From: Pseudobdellovibrionaceae bacterium
GTDB taxonomy: Bacteria; Bdellovibrionota; Bdellovibrionia; Bdellovibrionales; Bdellovibrionaceae
Reading direction: 5' to 3'
Assembly: GCA_021731025.1 (NCBI GenBank)
Contig: JAKFYD010000014.1
Span: forward strand, 1-57,351
DNA: 57,351 nucleotides
The notes under the pieces were generated by a model. That model was not told where the DNA came from and did not search any database. It saw only the letters and a list, made by a program, of their open reading frames with translations. Positions 32,528 through 43,408 of this stretch are shown one piece after another (position 1 is the first letter of the stretch; every line of letters begins with the position of its first letter). Position numbers and translations under genes: made by a program.

Positions 32528-32624
32528 AGTTTGCTCGGAAGAATTCTGAAGGTCAAATTGTTCCTTTTGTCCAGTTCGGTGAAAATCAGATTCAGTCTTG
32601 AACTATTTCAAATATACTAAATAC

Positions 32625-33008
32625 ATGTCGATAAAATTCATAATTGCAGATGACGCGCCTTTTGTAAGGGAACTTTTGAAGAGTGCATTTCAAAGCTTTG
32701 GCTGCGTTTGCGTTGGTGAAGCCGAAGACGGCCTGGAAGCGATTGAGCTTTATCGCATGACCTTACCTGATTTAGTTATCCTGGACCTAGTGATGCCCCT
32801 AAAGAATGGAATTGAAGCGGTACGAGAGATGAAAGAGATCTCTGATAAACCGATTATCATTGCCTGCACTTCACTGGACCACGAGCCATTGTTGCAAAAG
32901 TCTTTAGATGAAGGCTGCCAGGCTTTTATTGTTAAACCATTTACAAAAAATGATTTAGAAAACGTTATGAAAAACTTTTTCCCACAAACGAAAGAGGCCA
33001 CTCGATGA
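32625..33008 (+). CDS. CheY-like single-domain response regulator
   Basis: The 127-residue receiver starts at the ATG 32625; the frame is open to a TTG at 32598 but that adds only 9 atypical residues. Key residues are DD at 9-10, Asp54 in 'VILDLVMP', Thr/Ser in 'ACTSLD' and Lys104 in 'VKPF'. The stop overlaps the start of a small membrane protein (ATGA), so the pair is translationally coupled. Confidence 0.9.
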   Translation: MSIKFIIADDAPFVRELLKSAFQSFGCVCVGEAEDGLEAIELYRMTLPDLVILDLVMPLKNGIEAVREMKEISDKPIIIACTSLDHEPLLQKSLDEGCQAFIVKPFTKNDLENVMKNFFPQTKEATR

Positions 33009-33277
33009 GCGACGTTTTATTCATCTTAAAAAGCTTTTTAATGACCATGGCTTTAGTTTATTTAATGCAAATGAAGGTTGGTGGAGTCACTTTAGAATCC
33101 CGGTTTGATCAGTGGATTAAGTCATCTGAAATCAGCCGTCAGTCCCGGGTTGCTGCAGCCGGTGCTGCTTTATTTATCGAAGAAAGCACAACCCAAATGA
33201 AGAACAAAGTTCAAAGCCTTTGGAATGACAAAGTGTCATCCCAAAGATCTTCTTCTTCTGAGCGCGCATCGAAGTAA
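33005..33277 (+). CDS. Small membrane protein coupled to the receiver
   Basis: The 90-residue protein has one hydrophobic segment at the N-terminus (about 4-23) and an amphipathic, Gln/Ser-rich C-terminal part. No family is recognised. Overlap with the CheY-like gene suggests that it may work with that receiver at the membrane. Its stop directly abuts the stop of the convergent gene at 33278. Confidence 0.6.
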   Translation: MSDVLFILKSFLMTMALVYLMQMKVGGVTLESRFDQWIKSSEISRQSRVAAAGAALFIEESTTQMKNKVQSLWNDKVSSQRSSSSERASK

Positions 33278-33631
33278 TTAGTTAATCGCCGTTGCGCGAA
33301 GATTCTCTGCTGTTACTGGTGATGTACGTTTAGCTTGTGTAAGCTTTCCCTCACGAGAAAAGGGGCTGAATGCTGCATTTTTATGCGGGCAAGATGTGTC
33401 CCCAGTATTTGCTTTAGGGGGAGCTGTATAAATTTGATAGCTTGTGGTCTTATCAGATCGGCCTTGGGCAGACTTCTTATTCTTCATACGCTTCATATTA
33501 AGTGTCATCTCATCATCTCCGGCGGAAACCGAAGAACGTGGTTTAATTGTCTTCTTTGTATTTTTGGCAGCGTGGCCTTGAACCGCGAACATAAAAAAGA
33601 AAGCCATTAATAATAAGTGTAAGTGTCTCAT
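33278..33631 (-). CDS. Small basic secreted protein in the hit region
   Basis: The 117-residue protein has a signal peptide (about 1-21, ending GHA) and a basic, low-complexity mature part with a single cysteine (in DTSCPHK). AAGGAG precedes the ATG. A long inverted repeat covers its leader, suggesting regulation. It may belong to the host-interaction region because of its place beside it, but no homologue is recognised. Confidence 0.62.
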   Translation of the reverse strand: MRHLHLLLMAFFFMFAVQGHAAKNTKKTIKPRSSVSAGDDEMTLNMKRMKNKKSAQGRSDKTTSYQIYTAPPKANTGDTSCPHKNAAFSPFSREGKLTQAKRTSPVTAENLRATAIN

Positions 33632-33644
33632 CGTAAACTCCTTT

Positions 33645-33701
33645 GTCTCATATTGAATGTCTTAGCTAGAGACATGCCATGAGACATTCAATTTGAGACA
33701 G
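33645..33701. promoter_or_regulatory. 19-bp inverted repeat upstream of the 33278-33631 gene
   Basis: Arms 33645-33663 and 33683-33701 are complementary over 18 of 19 positions. The proximal arm lies 14 bases before the ATG and abuts the AAGGAG ribosome site. A related 11-bp motif recurs near 33794, close to the next gene's end. Confidence 0.6.
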
Positions 33702-33741
33702 GGAATTTACCTTGTAATATTAGCGGTTTATCTTTGGGTGA

Positions 33742-33772
33742 AAAAACAAAAGCGTCTAATAATTAGACGCTT
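33742..33772 (-). terminator. Intrinsic terminator of the hit/Rhs transcript
   Basis: 10-bp arms at 33751-33760 and 33762-33771 form a tight hairpin. On the minus strand it is followed by a T-rich tail. It lies about 40 bases after the stop of the gene at 33809-34111. Confidence 0.75.
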
Positions 33773-33808: not shown

Positions 33809-34111
33809 TTATTTGTTTCCTTTGGTCTTACCATTAGAACCTTCGGTTTCATGTTCAGGTGAGCATGATTCCGCGTGAAACTCTGCCGCGCCTCCAGGTT
33901 TGTCGATCCCACCCACCGGGCTTTTACATAGAGCCAATTCTTTTTTGTTTTGTGATGCCATTCCTGGAGCTCTATTGTTTGGACAATTGTTAAGACATTC
34001 TGCAGGACTAATGACTTCAGTAGGCCTTTTCCCGGTTTCTCCGCCATCTTCGGCCATCAGGTTCAAAGAAAACCCTAATAGCAGAGTTATAAAGAGAATT
34101 GCTAACTTCAT
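33809..34111 (-). CDS. Small secreted protein at the position of Bdellovibrio hit (Bd0108)
   Basis: The 100-residue protein has a signal peptide (about 1-20, ending LMA) and a short mature region with four cysteines, Pro, Gly and Glu residues and no known fold. It follows the Rhs/YD-repeat gene by 9 bases and stands at the end of the Tad pilus cluster. In B. bacteriovorus HD100 this place is held by Bd0108, the 'hit' protein whose mutation permits prey-independent growth and which acts with Bd0109 on pilus state. Identity here rests on size, secretion and gene order, not on an alignment. Confidence 0.7.
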   Translation of the reverse strand: MKLAILFITLLLGFSLNLMAEDGGETGKRPTEVISPAECLNNCPNNRAPGMASQNKKELALCKSPVGGIDKPGGAAEFHAESCSPEHETEGSNGKTKGNK

Positions 34112-34120
34112 GTTCGACTC

Positions 34121-35770
34121 CTATAAATAAAGCTCGGCTGTGGCCGGAGCTATAATATCTAACAAATTATTAAACGTACTTGCAACCTGTGTAGCGACTG
34201 TAGGTCCTTCAGGACTTTTCACTTCGCTGATCTCACCAGTGGGCTTATAACTGACCTTTATAGTGCCAAGCCCTGGTCTTGTCACTAAAGCTGGTTTTCC
34301 GTGGCGTTCTTCATATTCTATTTTGACAACTTTTTTAGCTTGGTCAGTGATAGTGGCCATACGACCGTGGTTATCATAAGTGATATTTATCTTTTGACCG
34401 TCAGAATTTGAAGCGAAAGTGAGGTTCGCCTTTTTATCATACTGAAACTGCGTCGTCTTCGTGCCGAGCATTTTACCTTTTTCGTTAAAGGCTTGCAGAA
34501 TCACTTTGCTGACTTTTTTAAATTCATTTTCGTATTCAAAAAGCATTTTTGCTAAAGCTGAAGCTTTTAATTTAACTAGACCATTAGGGAAATAGTCGTA
34601 AGAGATACGTTCAGTGTTTCGGCGAATCGAAATAGGTCGACCGAAAGTTTCATGGTAAGTGATATCGATGGTATTTTCGCCTTCTTTAGTCAGAACACGT
34701 TGAAGAGCGTAATCTCCGTTAGGAGTTTGCCGATGCCAAAATTCATAGCGATTATCAGCTGTAGTTTCTTTACCGCAGACTTTCTTCGCTGTTGACCAGA
34801 AATGACCAGCATCCTTCGGAGCAACTTCATAAGTGTAAGACTCGACACATTTGTCGCGATCAGTGAAGCCAATAACCCAGTCTTCTTTTTGATTATACTT
34901 AATTTGGATTGTTGTTTTGTCGTGGAAGGTCACTTTGGTCAGATTGTGAAGATCGTCATAATCGTAAGTGTTTGTTAAACCTAATGCATCTTTCGAAAAT
35001 GATAAATCATCTATGTTTGCAAATTTGTATTCTGTTTTAAGACCATTAGGTCCAACAACTTCTTTCACTTTTTTGTTAGGAAAATATTTAAAGCTTAAGC
35101 GTCGACCATTATTATCGCTCACTTCTTTAAGAAGATTTTTATCATATTCAAGTTTAAGCACATTGCTGTTCTTATCGTAAGCCGCCGTTAACTGACCTTG
35201 AAGAGAAAATCTTTGTTTCGTTCCATCAGGAAGAGTTCGCTCGTAGTAATTTTTTGTGTAAATAATATTTTCAACTTCTTTACCGTTGGCAAAAAATTTG
35301 GTTCCTTCTTTAATCGGAACTTTAATACCCATCTTGCCAGCAAGATTGCTTCGCATGTCATCGTACTCGATCAGCTCTACTCTGACCTTTTTATAGTATT
35401 CTTCAGTGCGAGGTTGGGTTTTATCTGCTCGCATTTTTGCGATGATTTTTTCAACTGTTTGTTCTACATCCTTGCGGTTCACTTCACGGGCAGAAAATAA
35501 AACTTCCGAACCTGCTCCACACTCTTTAACCTTTAAATTTCCTTCGGCGGTGATATCCAAAGAAGTTTCAAAGTTCGAACACCAGCCGAAACCAAACATT
35601 CCGTTGAACAAAGTTCTGCTGTTGTAAGTTCTTTCTAACTTCAAATCGTAACCAGCGCCGTTGACTTTCATATCTGTCCACGTGTTCGAGTAGTTCGCAT
35701 TCTTCATATCAACAACAGCAAAGGATTTGAGTGAAAATAATAAAATAAAAAGACCGTAATTCATTTTCAT
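34121..35770 (-). CDS. Secreted Rhs/YD-repeat protein (Bd0109-like)
   Basis: The 549-residue protein has a signal peptide (about 1-18) and an N-terminal DUF6531-like opening ('GYDLKLERTYNSRTLFNGMFGFGWCSNFE'). YD-type repeats fill most of the rest ('TYDNHGRMATITD', 'LEYDKNLLKEVSDNNGRRLSFKY'). It is far shorter than polymorphic Rhs toxins and has no toxin domain at the C-terminus. GAGAGG lies 9 bases before the ATG. By position it matches Bd0109, the partner of the hit protein. It is transcribed in the direction of the Tad genes and probably forms a periplasmic scaffold (inference). Confidence 0.82.
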   Translation of the reverse strand: MKMNYGLFILLFSLKSFAVVDMKNANYSNTWTDMKVNGAGYDLKLERTYNSRTLFNGMFGFGWCSNFETSLDITAEGNLKVKECGAGSEVLFSAREVNRKDVEQTVEKIIAKMRADKTQPRTEEYYKKVRVELIEYDDMRSNLAGKMGIKVPIKEGTKFFANGKEVENIIYTKNYYERTLPDGTKQRFSLQGQLTAAYDKNSNVLKLEYDKNLLKEVSDNNGRRLSFKYFPNKKVKEVVGPNGLKTEYKFANIDDLSFSKDALGLTNTYDYDDLHNLTKVTFHDKTTIQIKYNQKEDWVIGFTDRDKCVESYTYEVAPKDAGHFWSTAKKVCGKETTADNRYEFWHRQTPNGDYALQRVLTKEGENTIDITYHETFGRPISIRRNTERISYDYFPNGLVKLKASALAKMLFEYENEFKKVSKVILQAFNEKGKMLGTKTTQFQYDKKANLTFASNSDGQKINITYDNHGRMATITDQAKKVVKIEYEERHGKPALVTRPGLGTIKVSYKPTGEISEVKSPEGPTVATQVASTFNNLLDIIAPATAELYL

Positions 35771-35819: not shown

Positions 35820-36695
35820 TCACACTTTTATTGTAACAACTTTTCTAATAACTATTCCACCAATAACCACCATGCCCGTCATAATGAAAAGAAGTATTAA
35901 GCCCAAGGTCGTGTTGAACATAGGGGCAATAAATGCCGGGTCGATCAGGAAGAAAACTCCCATCAAAACAAAGGGGATCATCGAGACGATCATTCCTTGA
36001 GTTACTCCTTGAGCGGTGAGTGCTTCGATCTTCTTTTCGACCTTTTGTCGTTCACGAATTGTAGAAACGATGGTTTCGAAAGTTTCGCCTAAATTTCCAC
36101 CTGTGGATTTTAAAATATTAATGGCCGTCACGAACATCTGCACATCAGGTCGAGGAATGCGTTGACCAAGGTCCAACAAAGCCTCTTCGAAACTTTGACC
36201 GAATTGATGTTGGGTAATCACTGTTTTAAATTCTTGGCTGATGGGGTTACCCATGATTTCCACAACTCTTTCCATAGACTGAGTTGCGTTGGATCCGCTC
36301 TTGATCCCGTTGGCCATAATGGTTAAGGCATCGACCATCTGGTTAGTGAAACGAGTGCAGCGTTGCTCGTAAAGTTTCTTCACAAGAATTAAAGGCAAAG
36401 ACCAACCTAAGAGGGTCACAACTACTCCGAAAATTAAACTGATGACGATGTTTGGTAAGAACAGAAGGAAAACCGCTCCACCAAGACCGAAGCTCATGAC
36501 CATCATTAAAATATTAATTCGTTTTTCATTAGCTTCGACATGCATCAGTTTCAGCAGACGTAAAATTTCTTGCTTTTGATTTAAACCCTTTTTTTGGACC
36601 AGCGCTGAAAAACGATCTGCAGAAAAATAAATGACAACAGCAACACAGATCCCAAATAAAAGGGCTAGTATTACTGGATTCGATAATATGGACAC
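35820..36695 (-). CDS. tadB: TadB-like pilus assembly platform protein
   Basis: The 291-residue inner-membrane protein has the T2SF domain (about 115-245, 'FTNQMVDALTIMANGIKSGSNATQSM') and hydrophobic segments at both ends, as TadB. The start is a GTG with AAGGAG 6 bases upstream. In Tad systems it holds the ATPase and moves pilin into the fibre. Most Tad loci carry a second paralogue, TadC; only one such gene is seen here. Confidence 0.85.
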   Translation of the reverse strand: MSILSNPVILALLFGICVAVVIYFSADRFSALVQKKGLNQKQEILRLLKLMHVEANEKRINILMMVMSFGLGGAVFLLFLPNIVISLIFGVVVTLLGWSLPLILVKKLYEQRCTRFTNQMVDALTIMANGIKSGSNATQSMERVVEIMGNPISQEFKTVITQHQFGQSFEEALLDLGQRIPRPDVQMFVTAINILKSTGGNLGETFETIVSTIRERQKVEKKIEALTAQGVTQGMIVSMIPFVLMGVFFLIDPAFIAPMFNTTLGLILLFIMTGMVVIGGIVIRKVVTIKV

Positions 36696-36705
36696 AGTCT
36701 ACTCC

Positions 36706-38877
36706 TTAACTGGTTTTTTTCAATGCAGCCGCATCTGGAGCCGGTGCTTTAGTTTCCGTTGAAAAAATTTCTCTGGGGATAACGACACCTTTATCACTGA
36801 GCTTTTGGATAAAGCTCGGTATAGTTCCTGTCGCTTGGAAAATCCCTTGAATACGACGATTCTTGTCGTATCCAGTTTCTTTAAATCTAAAAATTTCTGC
36901 CAGTGTGACGACATCGCCTTGCATGCCCCCAACTTCAGTGACACTTAAAACTTTTCGACTTCCATCAGAGAGTCGAGAAATTTGTACGATCAAATGGACT
37001 GCCGAAGCTACCTGTTCACGAATAGCTCGGACAGGCAAATCCATTCCAGCCATCATGCAAAGAGTTTCGATACGAGCAATGCATTCACGGGGATTGTTCG
37101 CATGAGTTGTCGTCATTGATCCATCATGACCTGTGTTCATAGCTTGAAGCATATCGAGGGCAGCTCCGTCGCGGCACTCTCCGACAACGATTCGGTCAGG
37201 CCGCATTCGCAGAGCATTTTTAATTAAATCTCGAATTGTGACAGCATTGGTTCCTTCCATTGAAGGAGGACGAGTTTCAAGTCGCACCACGTGATCTTGT
37301 TGCATTTGTAATTCGGCCGCGTCTTCCACAGTGATAATACGTTCATTGGATGGAATGAATGAAGACATCATATTCAGCAAAGTCGTTTTACCTGAACCAG
37401 TACCACCACTGATCACAATGTTCAGACCATTTTCTACACAGATGCGCAGGAAATCGATCATCTGTTTGCTCATGGAACCGTACTCGATGTATTTTTCGGG
37501 TTGCACTCCACCTTTTTTAAATTTTCGAATGGTCACTGCAGGACCGTCGATCGCTAGTGGTTCAATAACGGCATTAACCCGGCTGCCATCTTTCAAACGA
37601 GCATCCACGTAAGGAGATGAAGTATTAATTTGTCGGCCCAACGGGGTTACGATCCTTTCAATGATACGTCGAAGGTGATCATTGGAAGTGAAAGTCACAG
37701 GACTTTGTTGAACTTTTCCGCCTTTTTCCACGAAGATTTTTTTGGCTCCGTTGACCATGATCTCGGAAACTTGCGGGTCAGCCAGAAGATCTTCTAAGGG
37801 GCCTAGACCCAAAGATTCTTCTAAGACTTCCTTGATAACTTTCGCCCGTTCTTCCCTTTGCATATTTGGGGATTCGCGATCGATAACCACAGTGATTTCT
37901 TTTTTAGTTTTTTCACGCAGTTCAACTTGTTTGGATTCATCACCACGAGTTTCAGTTAAAAGCTTATTGAGATCAGCAGTCCTGATCAACTCCGAGTGAA
38001 CGCGAAGCTTTAATTGAGTTCGCGGATCGAGATCTTTTGAGTTGGCATTGGATGCAGCACTATTAGCCGTAGCAGAGGCCGATGTTGTCACAGGTGCTGG
38101 CTTTGGTTTCTGTAGAGATTTTAATCTTTGAAGAACTCCACCTGTTAATTTGCGAACGACATCGTAATAAGCTGCCGTGATCGGAGCTTTGGTCGATGAC
38201 AAAACAAAAGGAGTGAATTTTTGCAATGCTGCTGTTGTCGTTACATCGTCTTGGGGAATAACTCCAAGTACGGGCATCATCAATTGATTGGAAATGGCTT
38301 GAGGAGCTAAGCCTGACGGCGAAGCCTTATTAATAATTAGTTGAAACATATCTTTGGGAAAAGTTGCTGATAGCAATTCATTGATCAGTCTTTGAGTTTG
38401 GGTCACAACCAGAAGTTCGGGTGAGCTAACAATGAAAGCTCCTGTCGACTCCATAAGAATGGCTTGTTGTAAGGGTCCAATGTCATTTCCCAGATCGATT
38501 ACAATAAATCGAAAAGTCCGACTGAAAAATTCCAATTGTTTAAGAGCTAAATCGGGACTCACATCTAATTTCTCTTCGGGTCCACGAACCGCGCCAATGT
38601 AGGCTAAGCCTGAAGCGTGCATAGTTACAATCTGATTGATGTTCGTTGCATTCAAGGAAGCAGTTTGAGTAGCAATCTCGCGCAAAGTTTTAATGGGCTT
38701 TAAACCCATGATCACATTTTGATCGCCGACACTTTTTGAATCACCATCAATCAGCAAAACAGAGGATCGAAGTTCAGTCATTAAGGCACAAGCAAAGTTC
38801 GCCGCAAAAATACTTTTGCCGACTCCACCTTTACCACCAATAACACCGATCAATGTACAATTAGGATTTAATGCCAA
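36706..38877 (-). CDS. TadZ/CpaE-TadA/CpaF fusion: ParA-like domain plus secretion ATPase
   Basis: The protein has 723 residues from a TTG at 38877 that has GGAGG 5 bases upstream (the frame opens 4 codons earlier). Residues 8-250 form a MinD/ParA-like ATPase with the deviant Walker A motif GGKGGVGKS near residue 11. A 40-residue Ala/Ser/Pro linker follows. The C-terminal part (about 300-715) is a TadA/CpaF hexameric ATPase with Walker A 'GGTGSGKTT' near 492 and the Asp/His boxes '[14 protein letters not shown]' and 'TTTHANNP'. TadZ normally places the machine and TadA powers pilus growth; here both are one polypeptide. Confidence 0.9.
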
Positions 38878-38959
38878 AGAATCCTCCAATCACATCATCG
38901 GTAAATTTCACCGAAAAGTGAATAGACTTTGGTCACTGACGTGATGAAGAGGGTTCAAT

Positions 38960-40510
38960 TTATTCGCGAAGACGGAATTTTTTCTTCACTTGCTCGGAAC
39001 CTGCGCTGGCCGACGTTTTAATGATAGGAGTTACGAAGACAACGAACTGACTTTGGTCGCGTTGAAATTCTTTAGATGCATACAAGCTAATGATAGGATT
39101 TTTCGCTGCAGGATTTCGATTGTAACCCGTTGAAGTCGAGTTCTTAATCAATCCCCCAATAGCTGCGCTTTGACGATCCCGCACAGTCACTCGAGAGTTA
39201 ATGGTATTTTTCGATGTGATCGGTGCTCCGTTTGCGGCAGTTCCTAACATCGAAGAAATAGAGAAGCTCATGTCCATAGCCACACTGCCAGACTTTTCAC
39301 CCAGAATCACCGGAGTGATACCCGCTTGAATACCAACGTCAGTAAAGGCAGTTCCTTGAACGCCGTCACGGCCAATCACAGAATAAGGTTGCTGAGTCAC
39401 CTGAGAGATTTCGCCCTTTTTGCCGTCTTCGACGATAAGGCTTGTGCTCTCGAGCACGCGAGCATGACCATGTTGTTTCGCAGAATTTAATTTTGGCAAT
39501 AGACCGGAAACGATTCCTGTCAGCTGAGTGATAACTCCTCCACCTGAACCACCCGAAGTGATTGTCATTGAAGAATTATCTTCAAGAGTCGGAGTAAATT
39601 GGAAGCGGAAAGCCTTCGAGTAATCTTTTTTCAATTCAACATAGTGAACCACCAATTGCACCATCTTTGCGGGAGGTGCTGCTGGGGCTTCTTTAACAAC
39701 AATCAAATTCACGACGCCATCATTCACGGGCTTTTGATATTTAATTCCTTTTTCAGAACCAACGGCATCCACAACTACAGGAGGCAAATAAAGTTTCGCG
39801 ATAATTTCCGCTTTTTTCATTTCCTCTTCATTGTTAGCAAATCCTTCTAAAATAATTTTATTATCAATGGTGCGAACAGTGATTTCAGGATTGTTAATAT
39901 CCCGAGAGATAAATTCAGCAATCTTCTTTTGGGCAATAGGGCTGATAGTGACCATTGAAGTGGCTTGATCAGGGTAGTGAGCCACAACATTCAAAATACG
40001 ACTGAGATCTTTGGGTAAAAGAACCTGACCATCGACAACCACTTTATCGTTGGCTACCTTAATAGTGATGCCTTCGATGTCGACCAACAGGGCTCGCATT
40101 TCGCGAACAACTTTATCCAATTTGCTTTTTTTCACGTCGATACGGTATTCAGCGATAACACGGTCTTTATTTTTATCGTGAATAGTTAAAGTCGCAAAGC
40201 CTTCTGCTTTTGGCGTTAACTTTAAAATATTAAGTTCTACATTGCGTTCAGCATTAACAATATTACGGAAAGTTCCTTTGAAAACGACATTCGGTGGAAG
40301 TTTTGGCAATTTAATTGTTTCTTCGAAACCAACGGTTAAATTAATATACTTTTTACTGCGGAAATTAGAATTATTCGATTCACCAGCAGACTCTTCAGAA
40401 GAATCCGTTGCAGGAGCTACTAAACTTTCATTTTCAGCATGAGCAAAATGAAATGATAACAAGCTTGTCACTATCATTAGACTCGATAATTTCATATTAA
40501 GTCTCTTCAT
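38960..40510 (-). CDS. cpaC: Tad secretin CpaC/RcpA
   Basis: The 516-residue outer-membrane secretin starts at 40510, where GGGGGA lies just upstream; an ATG at 40531 overlaps the cpaB stop and is the alternative. It has a signal peptide (ending AHA), a pilus-assembly N-terminal domain, BON-like domains (about 140-260) and the secretin domain (about 320-490) with 'GVQGTAFTDVGIQAGITPV' and 'VTVRDRQSAAIGGLIK'. It forms the outer-membrane pore for the Flp pilus. Confidence 0.92.
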   Translation of the reverse strand: MKRLNMKLSSLMIVTSLLSFHFAHAENESLVAPATDSSEESAGESNNSNFRSKKYINLTVGFEETIKLPKLPPNVVFKGTFRNIVNAERNVELNILKLTPKAEGFATLTIHDKNKDRVIAEYRIDVKKSKLDKVVREMRALLVDIEGITIKVANDKVVVDGQVLLPKDLSRILNVVAHYPDQATSMVTISPIAQKKIAEFISRDINNPEITVRTIDNKIILEGFANNEEEMKKAEIIAKLYLPPVVVDAVGSEKGIKYQKPVNDGVVNLIVVKEAPAAPPAKMVQLVVHYVELKKDYSKAFRFQFTPTLEDNSSMTITSGGSGGGVITQLTGIVSGLLPKLNSAKQHGHARVLESTSLIVEDGKKGEISQVTQQPYSVIGRDGVQGTAFTDVGIQAGITPVILGEKSGSVAMDMSFSISSMLGTAANGAPITSKNTINSRVTVRDRQSAAIGGLIKNSTSTGYNRNPAAKNPIISLYASKEFQRDQSQFVVFVTPIIKTSASAGSEQVKKKFRLRE

Positions 40511-40527
40511 TTTTCCCCCTAAGGTGA

Positions 40528-41418
40528 TCATAATCTTTGAAACCCACCTGCTTTTCGCTGTGGTGGCTGCGGAATCTGAGGTCGCACTGGCAACTGCGGC
40601 ATCGCTGGTGCAGCTGCGGGTGGTGCATTAAGATCAACTACGGGTCTTCCCAAAACCGAATCCGACGTTGAAGTCGGAAGTCGCAACGGTTGCTGTCGGT
40701 CATTGGGATTTCGTAACGTGAAATAAAGATTCCCAGGGGACGTTGATAAAATATACACCAAATCCTGCGCCTGTTTCAGATCGGCTTCCACTGTAATTGT
40801 ACTATATTTTGTATCACCCGTCAGAGGGGTTTGAATGACATTTTTCCCAGATGAATCTAATTCCATCAGGCGGGGAAGATTGTTTACAATTGAGACACCC
40901 GTCGCTAAAACCACTACGTCTTGCATAAGATAGAAGGCTTCTCGTCGTTGGTTGACACCTTTTCCAGAATCCAAGGCAGCAATGATATCGACGCGATCAC
41001 CAGGACGAATCAGCTTAGCAACTCCGCGAACTTCGTCGACGGGAATAGCAACAGCTCTTTTGGTTGGAGCCACTTGCATCGAAATTCCTGTATCGGCTCC
41101 GGGAGTGTAAAGAAAATTTCGTAAAATCGGTTGATCTTTTTTAATGGGAATTGCGGTCACATTGCCCACAACATCTTCAGGATTATCAATTGAATTGGGT
41201 GCCATAAAATCTTTAGGAACACTGCGAGTTTCCAACATGGTTTCGTAAATGGTCGACATTTCGGGAATGTCTTCCTTGGCTACAACGATCACTTTCGTTG
41301 AACCATACTTTTTCATCAGAGCATCTTTATTTTCTTGAGAATAGCTATACAGTAAGAAAGCCGCAAAAACACCGGCGATCAAAGACAACCATAAATTTCG
41401 TCCTTCCGAGGACCCCAT
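40528..41418 (-). CDS. cpaB: Flp pilus assembly protein CpaB
   Basis: The 296-residue protein has one N-terminal membrane segment, a SAF-like domain ('VVVAKEDIPEMSTI', 'FMAPNSIDNPEDVVG', 'IKKDQPILRNFL') and an RcpC/CpaB domain ('VDEVRGVAKLIRPGDRVDIIAAL'), ending in a Pro/Ala/Gln-rich tail. GAGG lies before the ATG. It is a periplasmic partner of the CpaC secretin, which follows directly. Confidence 0.92.
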   Translation of the reverse strand: MGSSEGRNLWLSLIAGVFAAFLLYSYSQENKDALMKKYGSTKVIVVAKEDIPEMSTIYETMLETRSVPKDFMAPNSIDNPEDVVGNVTAIPIKKDQPILRNFLYTPGADTGISMQVAPTKRAVAIPVDEVRGVAKLIRPGDRVDIIAALDSGKGVNQRREAFYLMQDVVVLATGVSIVNNLPRLMELDSSGKNVIQTPLTGDTKYSTITVEADLKQAQDLVYILSTSPGNLYFTLRNPNDRQQPLRLPTSTSDSVLGRPVVDLNAPPAAAPAMPQLPVRPQIPQPPQRKAGGFQRL

Positions 41419-43090: not shown

Positions 43091-43285
43091 TTATTGCCCA
43101 TCTGGCGTGAAGCTGTCCATCTGAGTGCCAATTTGGTCTGTTTTTCCAGTGATGGCTTGAATAATTCTACCTTTAAAAATGGTAACAAGCCCGATAACAA
43201 CAACTAACAAAAGAATGTATTCCACCATTCCTTGGCCCTTTTTATTACTTAATAAACTTTTTCTTTTTTTCGTTAGCTTTTTCAT
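43091..43285 (-). CDS. flp: Flp major pilin
   Basis: From the ATG at 43285, preceded by GGGAGGA, the prepilin has 64 residues: a Lys/Arg-rich leader, the type IVb cleavage motif G|QGMVEY and a 20-residue hydrophobic helix, then a short C-terminal region. Cleavage needs a TadV-type peptidase, not found in this window. It is the first gene of the Tad operon. Confidence 0.92.
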   Translation of the reverse strand: MKKLTKKRKSLLSNKKGQGMVEYILLLVVVIGLVTIFKGRIIQAITGKTDQIGTQMDSFTPDGQ

Positions 43286-43408
43286 AGTGTCCTCCCACAA
43301 TTCCATTATCGGCGAAAGTCCCATTTTTCGAGAGCGAATTTTTCAAAACTAGTGTTTCGTTTTGAGATTTTCGCAAAAAAAATGTTTAGACTTTAGTCAG
43401 ACAAATAT

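Follow-up and report, generated by a model that had tools for sequence, protein, structure and literature searches.

The window, by which we mean the whole stretch of 57,351 nucleotides analyzed here, carries a hit locus in which the equivalent of Bd0108 is recognized by position and not by sequence. We are fairly confident of the explanation as a whole, i.e., that the locus combines a Bd0109 orthologue and a Bd0108-position protein with a third small secreted gene under a sigma-54-type promoter, and that the "sRNA" published for the hit locus of HD100 is probably the mRNA of this third gene. The organism is a member of the Bdellovibrionaceae but not of Bdellovibrio itself, and it is congeneric with UBA5009 (71% identity in Bd0109).

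The locus closes a Tad operon

The preliminary description held that a 100-residue secreted protein and a secreted Rhs/YD protein close a Tad operon, and both minus-strand ORFs are present where it placed them. Their signal peptides, called by a simple hydropathy rule, and the Tad genes upstream on the same strand (Flp pilin, CpaB/RcpC, secretin, CpaE-CpaF fusion and T2SSF protein) bear this out, with the ORF pair closing the cluster (Table 1). The claim that the whole cluster is preserved as in B. bacteriovorus also stood, as the gene order from groEL to the Tad genes matches HD100. In the comparison with 91-111 kb of HD100, the shared order runs through groEL, a 528/519-aa protein (42% identity), a CheY-like regulator (46%) and an 86/90-aa protein (35%), and continues with the small secreted genes, Bd0109 (64%) and the Tad genes (61-75%). 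A counterpart of the 393-aa HD100 ORF 94522-95703 was absent from the window among the matches listed for this region. The HD100 ORFs corresponding to the two plus-strand neighbors in the window are probably Bd0102 (95746-96138) and Bd0103 (96125-96385). Two primers from the HD100 hit-locus paper match the HD100 reference genome used here exactly, at the published coordinates. Placement at the 3' end of the Tad operon between two conserved flanking genes is one mark of a hit locus, and this is the placement found in the window. Within the Tad genes, the CpaE-like ParA domain and the CpaF/TadA ATPase share a single ORF, as they also do in HD100 (739 aa, 75% identical).

Table 1. Features of the hit locus and its surroundings in the window.
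Feature	Position	Strand	Basis
CheY-like response regulator, receiver domain only	32598..33008	+	46% identity, E 3e-39 vs HD100 ORF 95746-96138
90-aa membrane-anchor-like protein, convergent neighbor	33005..33277	+	35% identity, E 5e-11 vs HD100 ORF 96125-96385
Third small secreted gene, 117 aa	33278..33631	-	Signal peptide, AAAGGAG ribosome site, position
Inverted repeat TGTCTCA...TGAGACA around promoter	33645..33701	-	Read from sequence
Sigma-54-type -24/-12 promoter TGGCATGTCTCTAGCT, upstream of third gene	33664..33679	-	TGGCAY-N7-GCW match
Terminator-like hairpin and T-run after Bd0108-position gene	33750..33772	-	10-pair stem AAGCGTCTAAT/ATTAGACGCTT, then TTGTTTTTTC
Bd0108-position gene, 100-aa secreted low-hydrophobicity protein	33809..34111	-	Position, signal peptide, size, composition
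Bd0109 orthologue, 549-aa secreted YD/RHS protein	34121..35770	-	Synteny, Pfam DUF6531 + RHS_repeat
Tad T2SSF inner-membrane protein, Bd0110 counterpart	35820..36695	-	61% identity HD100; PF00482
Fusion of CpaE-like ParA domain and CpaF/TadA ATPase (counterpart of Bd0111)	36706..38889	-	PF00437 + CbiA/ParA domains
Secretin CpaC/RcpA	38960..40531	-	PF00263 + BON; 66% identity HD100
CpaB/RcpC	40528..41418	-	PF16976 + SAF; 64% identity HD100
Flp pilin, Tad cluster upstream end	43091..43324	-	PF16982 Flp1_like

A conserved YD/RHS protein

The larger product is a one-to-one orthologue of Bd0109. It aligns with the HD100 protein at 64% identity over 550 aa and is the single full-length Bd0109 match in its own genome, where the remaining matches are partial and weak. 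Across the order, a Bd0109 match was found in 135 of 141 genomes. The signal peptide ends at ...KSFA/VVDM and is followed by DUF6531 (residues 20-80, E 5.6e-10) with RHS repeats behind it (E 3.5e-10). For HD100, residues 20-63 of the Bd0109 N terminus have a published pilin-like reading from PHYRE; in HD100, the window and UBA5009 alike, this stretch overlaps a plain DUF6531 match. Further RHS/YD proteins are encoded on contigs C6, C14, C47, C63 and C8 of the window genome, two of them longer than 2,400 residues.

The YD/RHS repeat sheet and N-terminal DUF6531 are shared with T6SS Rhs effectors and other YD-repeat shells, but the window protein differs from them in its length of about 550 aa, its secretion by signal peptide and its lack of a toxin tail. 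The pair could be read as a toxin-immunity style Rhs pair instead of a pilus regulator, since a small gene often lies behind Rhs toxins and a fold search with the AlphaFold model returns Rhs effectors and teneurins. The model is of low confidence (pLDDT 63.9, with residues 1-98 below 50), so its fold detail was set aside and only the repeat class was kept. We disfavor the toxin-immunity reading and consider it very improbable. The protein stops just past the YD repeats, and no variable toxin domain was found at its C terminus, YD/RHS repeat and DUF6531 being the sole matching models; the small protein, for its part, is exported. Moreover, in HD100 bd0108 could be deleted while a bd0109 deletion was never obtained (PMC3818213), which is the reverse of what an immunity gene would give.

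A small protein recognized by position

The gene following the Bd0109 orthologue begins 9 nt past its stop, has an AGGAG ribosome site and encodes a signal peptide ending at ...NLMA/EDGG. At 100 aa its product is nearly as long as HD100 Bd0108 (101 aa) and occupies the same place, but the two sequences are not alignable. Their compositions are alike (GSTPNQ 0.45 in the window vs. 0.46 in HD100; hydrophobic residues 0.11 vs. 0.10), and on this basis the window protein would be of the disorder type, like HD100 Bd0108. Of 71 loci from relatives, 67 place a small ORF with a signal peptide immediately behind Bd0109. The gaps are mostly 4-20 nt, and the products have 65-137 aa and a low hydrophobic content. 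As a control, only 5 of 67 genes of at least 250 aa in six loci precede a small signal-peptide ORF, and four of these five are Bd0109.

The cysteines differ between the two proteins. HD100 Bd0108 has a single CXXC (C56/C59), whereas the window protein lacks this pair and carries CLNNC (CX3C) plus two further cysteines. A CXXC occurs in 42 of the 67 Bd0108-position proteins, CX2-4C in 52, and at least one mature cysteine in 65; the Bd0108 CXXC site is also not conserved in strain W (PMC4267844). CXXC is thus not defining across the family. A four-cysteine likeness to the UBA5009 small protein, noticed by eye, was rejected because it did not exceed shuffled sequences.

The expectation that aligning the small product would demonstrate homology to Bd0108 was not borne out, as the mature parts do worse than shuffled sequences (Z -1.2) and share 19% identity vs. 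a 21% background. Similarity to the mature parts of the other Bd0108-position proteins was not detectable either (best Z 2.7). In a leave-one-out family profile the window protein ranks first among the window ORFs (E 0.0023 with the signal peptide included), but the mature part gives E 3.3; the score stems from the signal peptide, and the rank was dropped as proof of homology. The family as a whole puts these values in perspective. Mature small-protein identity is 0.73 where Bd0109 identity exceeds 92%, 0.46 at 85-92%, 0.32 at 75-85%, 0.29 at 68-75% and 0.24-0.25 below 68%, and the window-HD100 pair stands at 64%. Because the family has reached near-background identity at this divergence, alignment has no power to decide Bd0108 orthology, and the smooth decay is as expected of one fast-evolving gene. 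This gene is under constraint, given a dN/dS of 0.03-0.22 in close pairs of relatives; all dN/dS values reported here come from pairs of relatives, as the nearest relative of the window genes is too diverged for the computation.

An unrelated small secreted protein might also have been swapped in at the Bd0108 site, leaving the YD protein alone conserved. Such a replacement would fit the mature part without similarity to Bd0108, the CX3C and two cysteines in place of the HD100 CXXC, and the background identity (21%) even to the small protein of the same-genus UBA5009. We nevertheless regard it as unlikely, since identity decays continuously with Bd0109 divergence and without a jump, position and spacing are retained together with the signal peptide, the length and the composition, and a small ORF is present in every well-covered genus. 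We therefore keep to a positional equivalent of Bd0108: of the Bd0108/Bd0109 assignment in the preliminary description, the syntenic locus, the Bd0109 orthologue and the Bd0108 position stand, and the homology of the small protein by alignment does not.

A better Bd0108 homologue elsewhere in the genome, named in advance as the finding that would overturn the assignment, was not found with an HD100 Bd0108 query (one match, E 0.38) or with a profile built from 16 family members, which gave two weak matches at E 0.005 and 0.013, although a diverged paralogue could slip past both searches. Of these two, the match on contig C55 is a 90-aa protein rich in lysine and alanine, and the match on C17 is a secreted protein of 185 aa; on inspection they are unrelated secreted proteins with no adjoining YD gene.

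In HD100 bd0108, two copies of the 10-nt sequence GGAGCCTTTG are spaced by 42 nt, matching the published repeats that flank a recurrent deletion, whereas direct repeats of at least 8 nt are absent from the window gene. With the flanking repeats absent, the recurrent 42-bp deletion should not recur in the window gene.

A third gene under a sigma-54-type promoter

The preliminary description overlooked a third secreted gene (33278-33631) and its promoter. A third small secreted ORF with a ribosome site is found in 58 of the 71 loci, about 140-330 nt past the small gene in most relatives, and its HD100 counterpart is ORF 96483-96683 (66 codons). The product has 66 aa in HD100 and 117 aa in the window. 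The window ORF has no significant similarity to the third ORFs of relatives and is assigned by position; across genera, the third protein conserves a signal peptide, a ribosome site and one cysteine. In relatives, differences at codon positions 1/2/3 number 192/129/409 and dN/dS ranges from 0 to 0.44. Hence the HD100-type third ORF evolves as coding sequence, a result obtained in the relatives.

At this place in HD100, a non-coding RNA of the hit locus has been reported as a 261-nt sRNA at 96455-96716 that rises in bd0108 mutants (PMC3818213). Its RT-PCR amplicon (96555-96652) lies wholly within ORF 96483-96683, with both primers inside. Coding evolution of the third ORF, together with the conserved -24/-12 promoter described below, indicates that the published "sRNA" is probably the mRNA of the third small secreted protein. 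The original description and the rise in bd0108 mutants would suit a true regulatory RNA, acting alone or in a dual function with which the sequence is compatible, the ORF then being incidental or secondary. We find this doubtful in view of the predominance of synonymous changes, with dN/dS down to 0-0.10 in close pairs, and of the signal peptide, ribosome site and cysteine kept across genera. Additionally, no Rfam family reaches its gathering score in the window region. The Rfam matches around 33640-33716 belong to models of eukaryotic microRNAs; they fall far short of the respective gathering scores and are produced by the inverted repeat. For the HD100 transcript, mRNA remains our preferred reading. 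A hypothetical gene, BD_RS00505, has been mentioned at the place of the third gene (PMC5941755), and in the literature searched we found no paper that sets the third ORF against the published sRNA. In Bdellovibrionales bins from activated sludge, homologues of Bd0103 and Bd0109 are accompanied by two or three short genes whose products have signal peptides and 57-133 aa (PMC10469934). These arrays resemble the locus described here in their short secreted genes, while the sigma-54-type promoter, the coding-rate tests and the clash with the sRNA are unreported there.

The putative promoter TGGCATGTCTCTAGCT has GG and GC ten bases apart in a TGGCAC-N5-TTGCW-like arrangement, as required of a sigma-54 promoter sequence. 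Of 58 genomes with the third gene, 49 have the pattern TGGCAY-N7-GCW in front of it, mostly 38-64 nt ahead of the ATG; these genomes are related and do not represent 49 independent events, but their flanks have diverged. In the same 58 genomes, the reversed pattern and the opposite strand gave 0 matches each and shuffles a mean of 0.06. The match is the only one on either strand of the window, and it is likewise single in 19.9 kb of HD100. Across the whole genome of the window organism, the pattern matches 77 times and its reverse 35 times, so single matches mean little and the weight falls on the conserved position. Of 141 genomes, 127 have an rpoN gene, among them that of the window organism, which also has 16 strong matches to the AAA+ domain of enhancer-binding proteins. 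The -24/-12 element would use sigma-54.

The terminator-like hairpin stands between the Bd0108-position gene and the third-gene promoter. Gene order, Tad operon, Bd0109, terminator, promoter and order of the third ORF are points of likeness to the hit locus of HD100. In 58 genomes, the stretch that separates the Bd0108-position gene from the third gene contains GTCTCA/TGAGAC 74 times, compared with 5.4 in shuffled sequence. Each Bdellovibrio genome has between 1 and 25 copies of the 15-mer GTCTCA-N3-TGAGAC (HD100 example 96767-96781) and between 0 and 2 of the reversed pattern. As an operator of the sigma-54 promoter this 15-mer was rejected, because the 25 copies in HD100 are mostly without a nearby -24/-12 element and often inside ORFs.

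The third gene is not universal. Five loci of genus g20 (L040-L043 and L045) have Bd0109 and a Bd0108-position ORF without the third ORF or a sigma-54-type element, which is a natural loss of both gene and promoter. Both are also missing from some genomes outside g20, and we count these absences, together with those in g20, against our explanation. At one other locus (L031, genome G017), the first such ORF is followed, about 870 nt past the stop codon of Bd0109, by another small secreted ORF that carries the third-gene motif SCPRSNNGLFKNT, which suggests a local duplication of the third gene.

Proposed working

In HD100, Bd0108 is exported, intrinsically disordered and weakly binds Bd0109; loss of bd0108 gives fewer pili and frees growth from prey, while the 42-bp deletion gives longer pili (PMC3818213, PMC4267844). 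The HD100 work credits the effect to type IVa pili and not to the Tad pilus of the hit operon, which speaks against our explanation. By analogy with HD100, the same binding, pilus effect and growth control would apply to the window proteins.

The Tad (type IVb pilus) operon would accordingly end in genes for two exported proteins, one of YD/RHS shell type and one a small disordered partner. Transferred from HD100, the pair would work in the periplasm, where it would influence how pili are extruded and retracted, and the state of the pair would set attack phase versus growth. The rise of the HD100 transcript over the third ORF in bd0108 mutants, taken with the role of the pair in piliation, suggests that pilus or envelope state feeds into the third gene. 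Presumably, the state set by the pair would act on an enhancer-binding protein, which may then fire the third gene, past the terminator, from its own sigma-54-type promoter. We give even chances to the broader proposal that the hit locus is a three-protein module through much of Bdellovibrionales, with a sigma-54-controlled third protein as the output of Bd0108/pilus state and the "hit sRNA" as its mRNA.

Implications for the hit locus

How prey contact leads to the decision to grow is an old question in Bdellovibrio, for which the hit locus is the best genetic handle. Previous studies treated bd0108 as unique to Bdellovibrio (PMC3818213) or as missing from some strains (PMC5941755). Throughout the order, however, fast-evolving proteins occupy the Bd0108 position, and absence in BLAST therefore means little. 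Bdellovibrio sp. qaytius is described as a protist parasite. Its genome (CP025734.1) keeps Bd0109 along with a small protein that has a CXXC, and also the third gene and the promoter in front of it; the hit locus may therefore not be specific to bacterial prey. If the "sRNA" is indeed an mRNA under a sigma-54-type promoter, the link between pilus and transcription would narrow to a limited set of enhancer-binding proteins.
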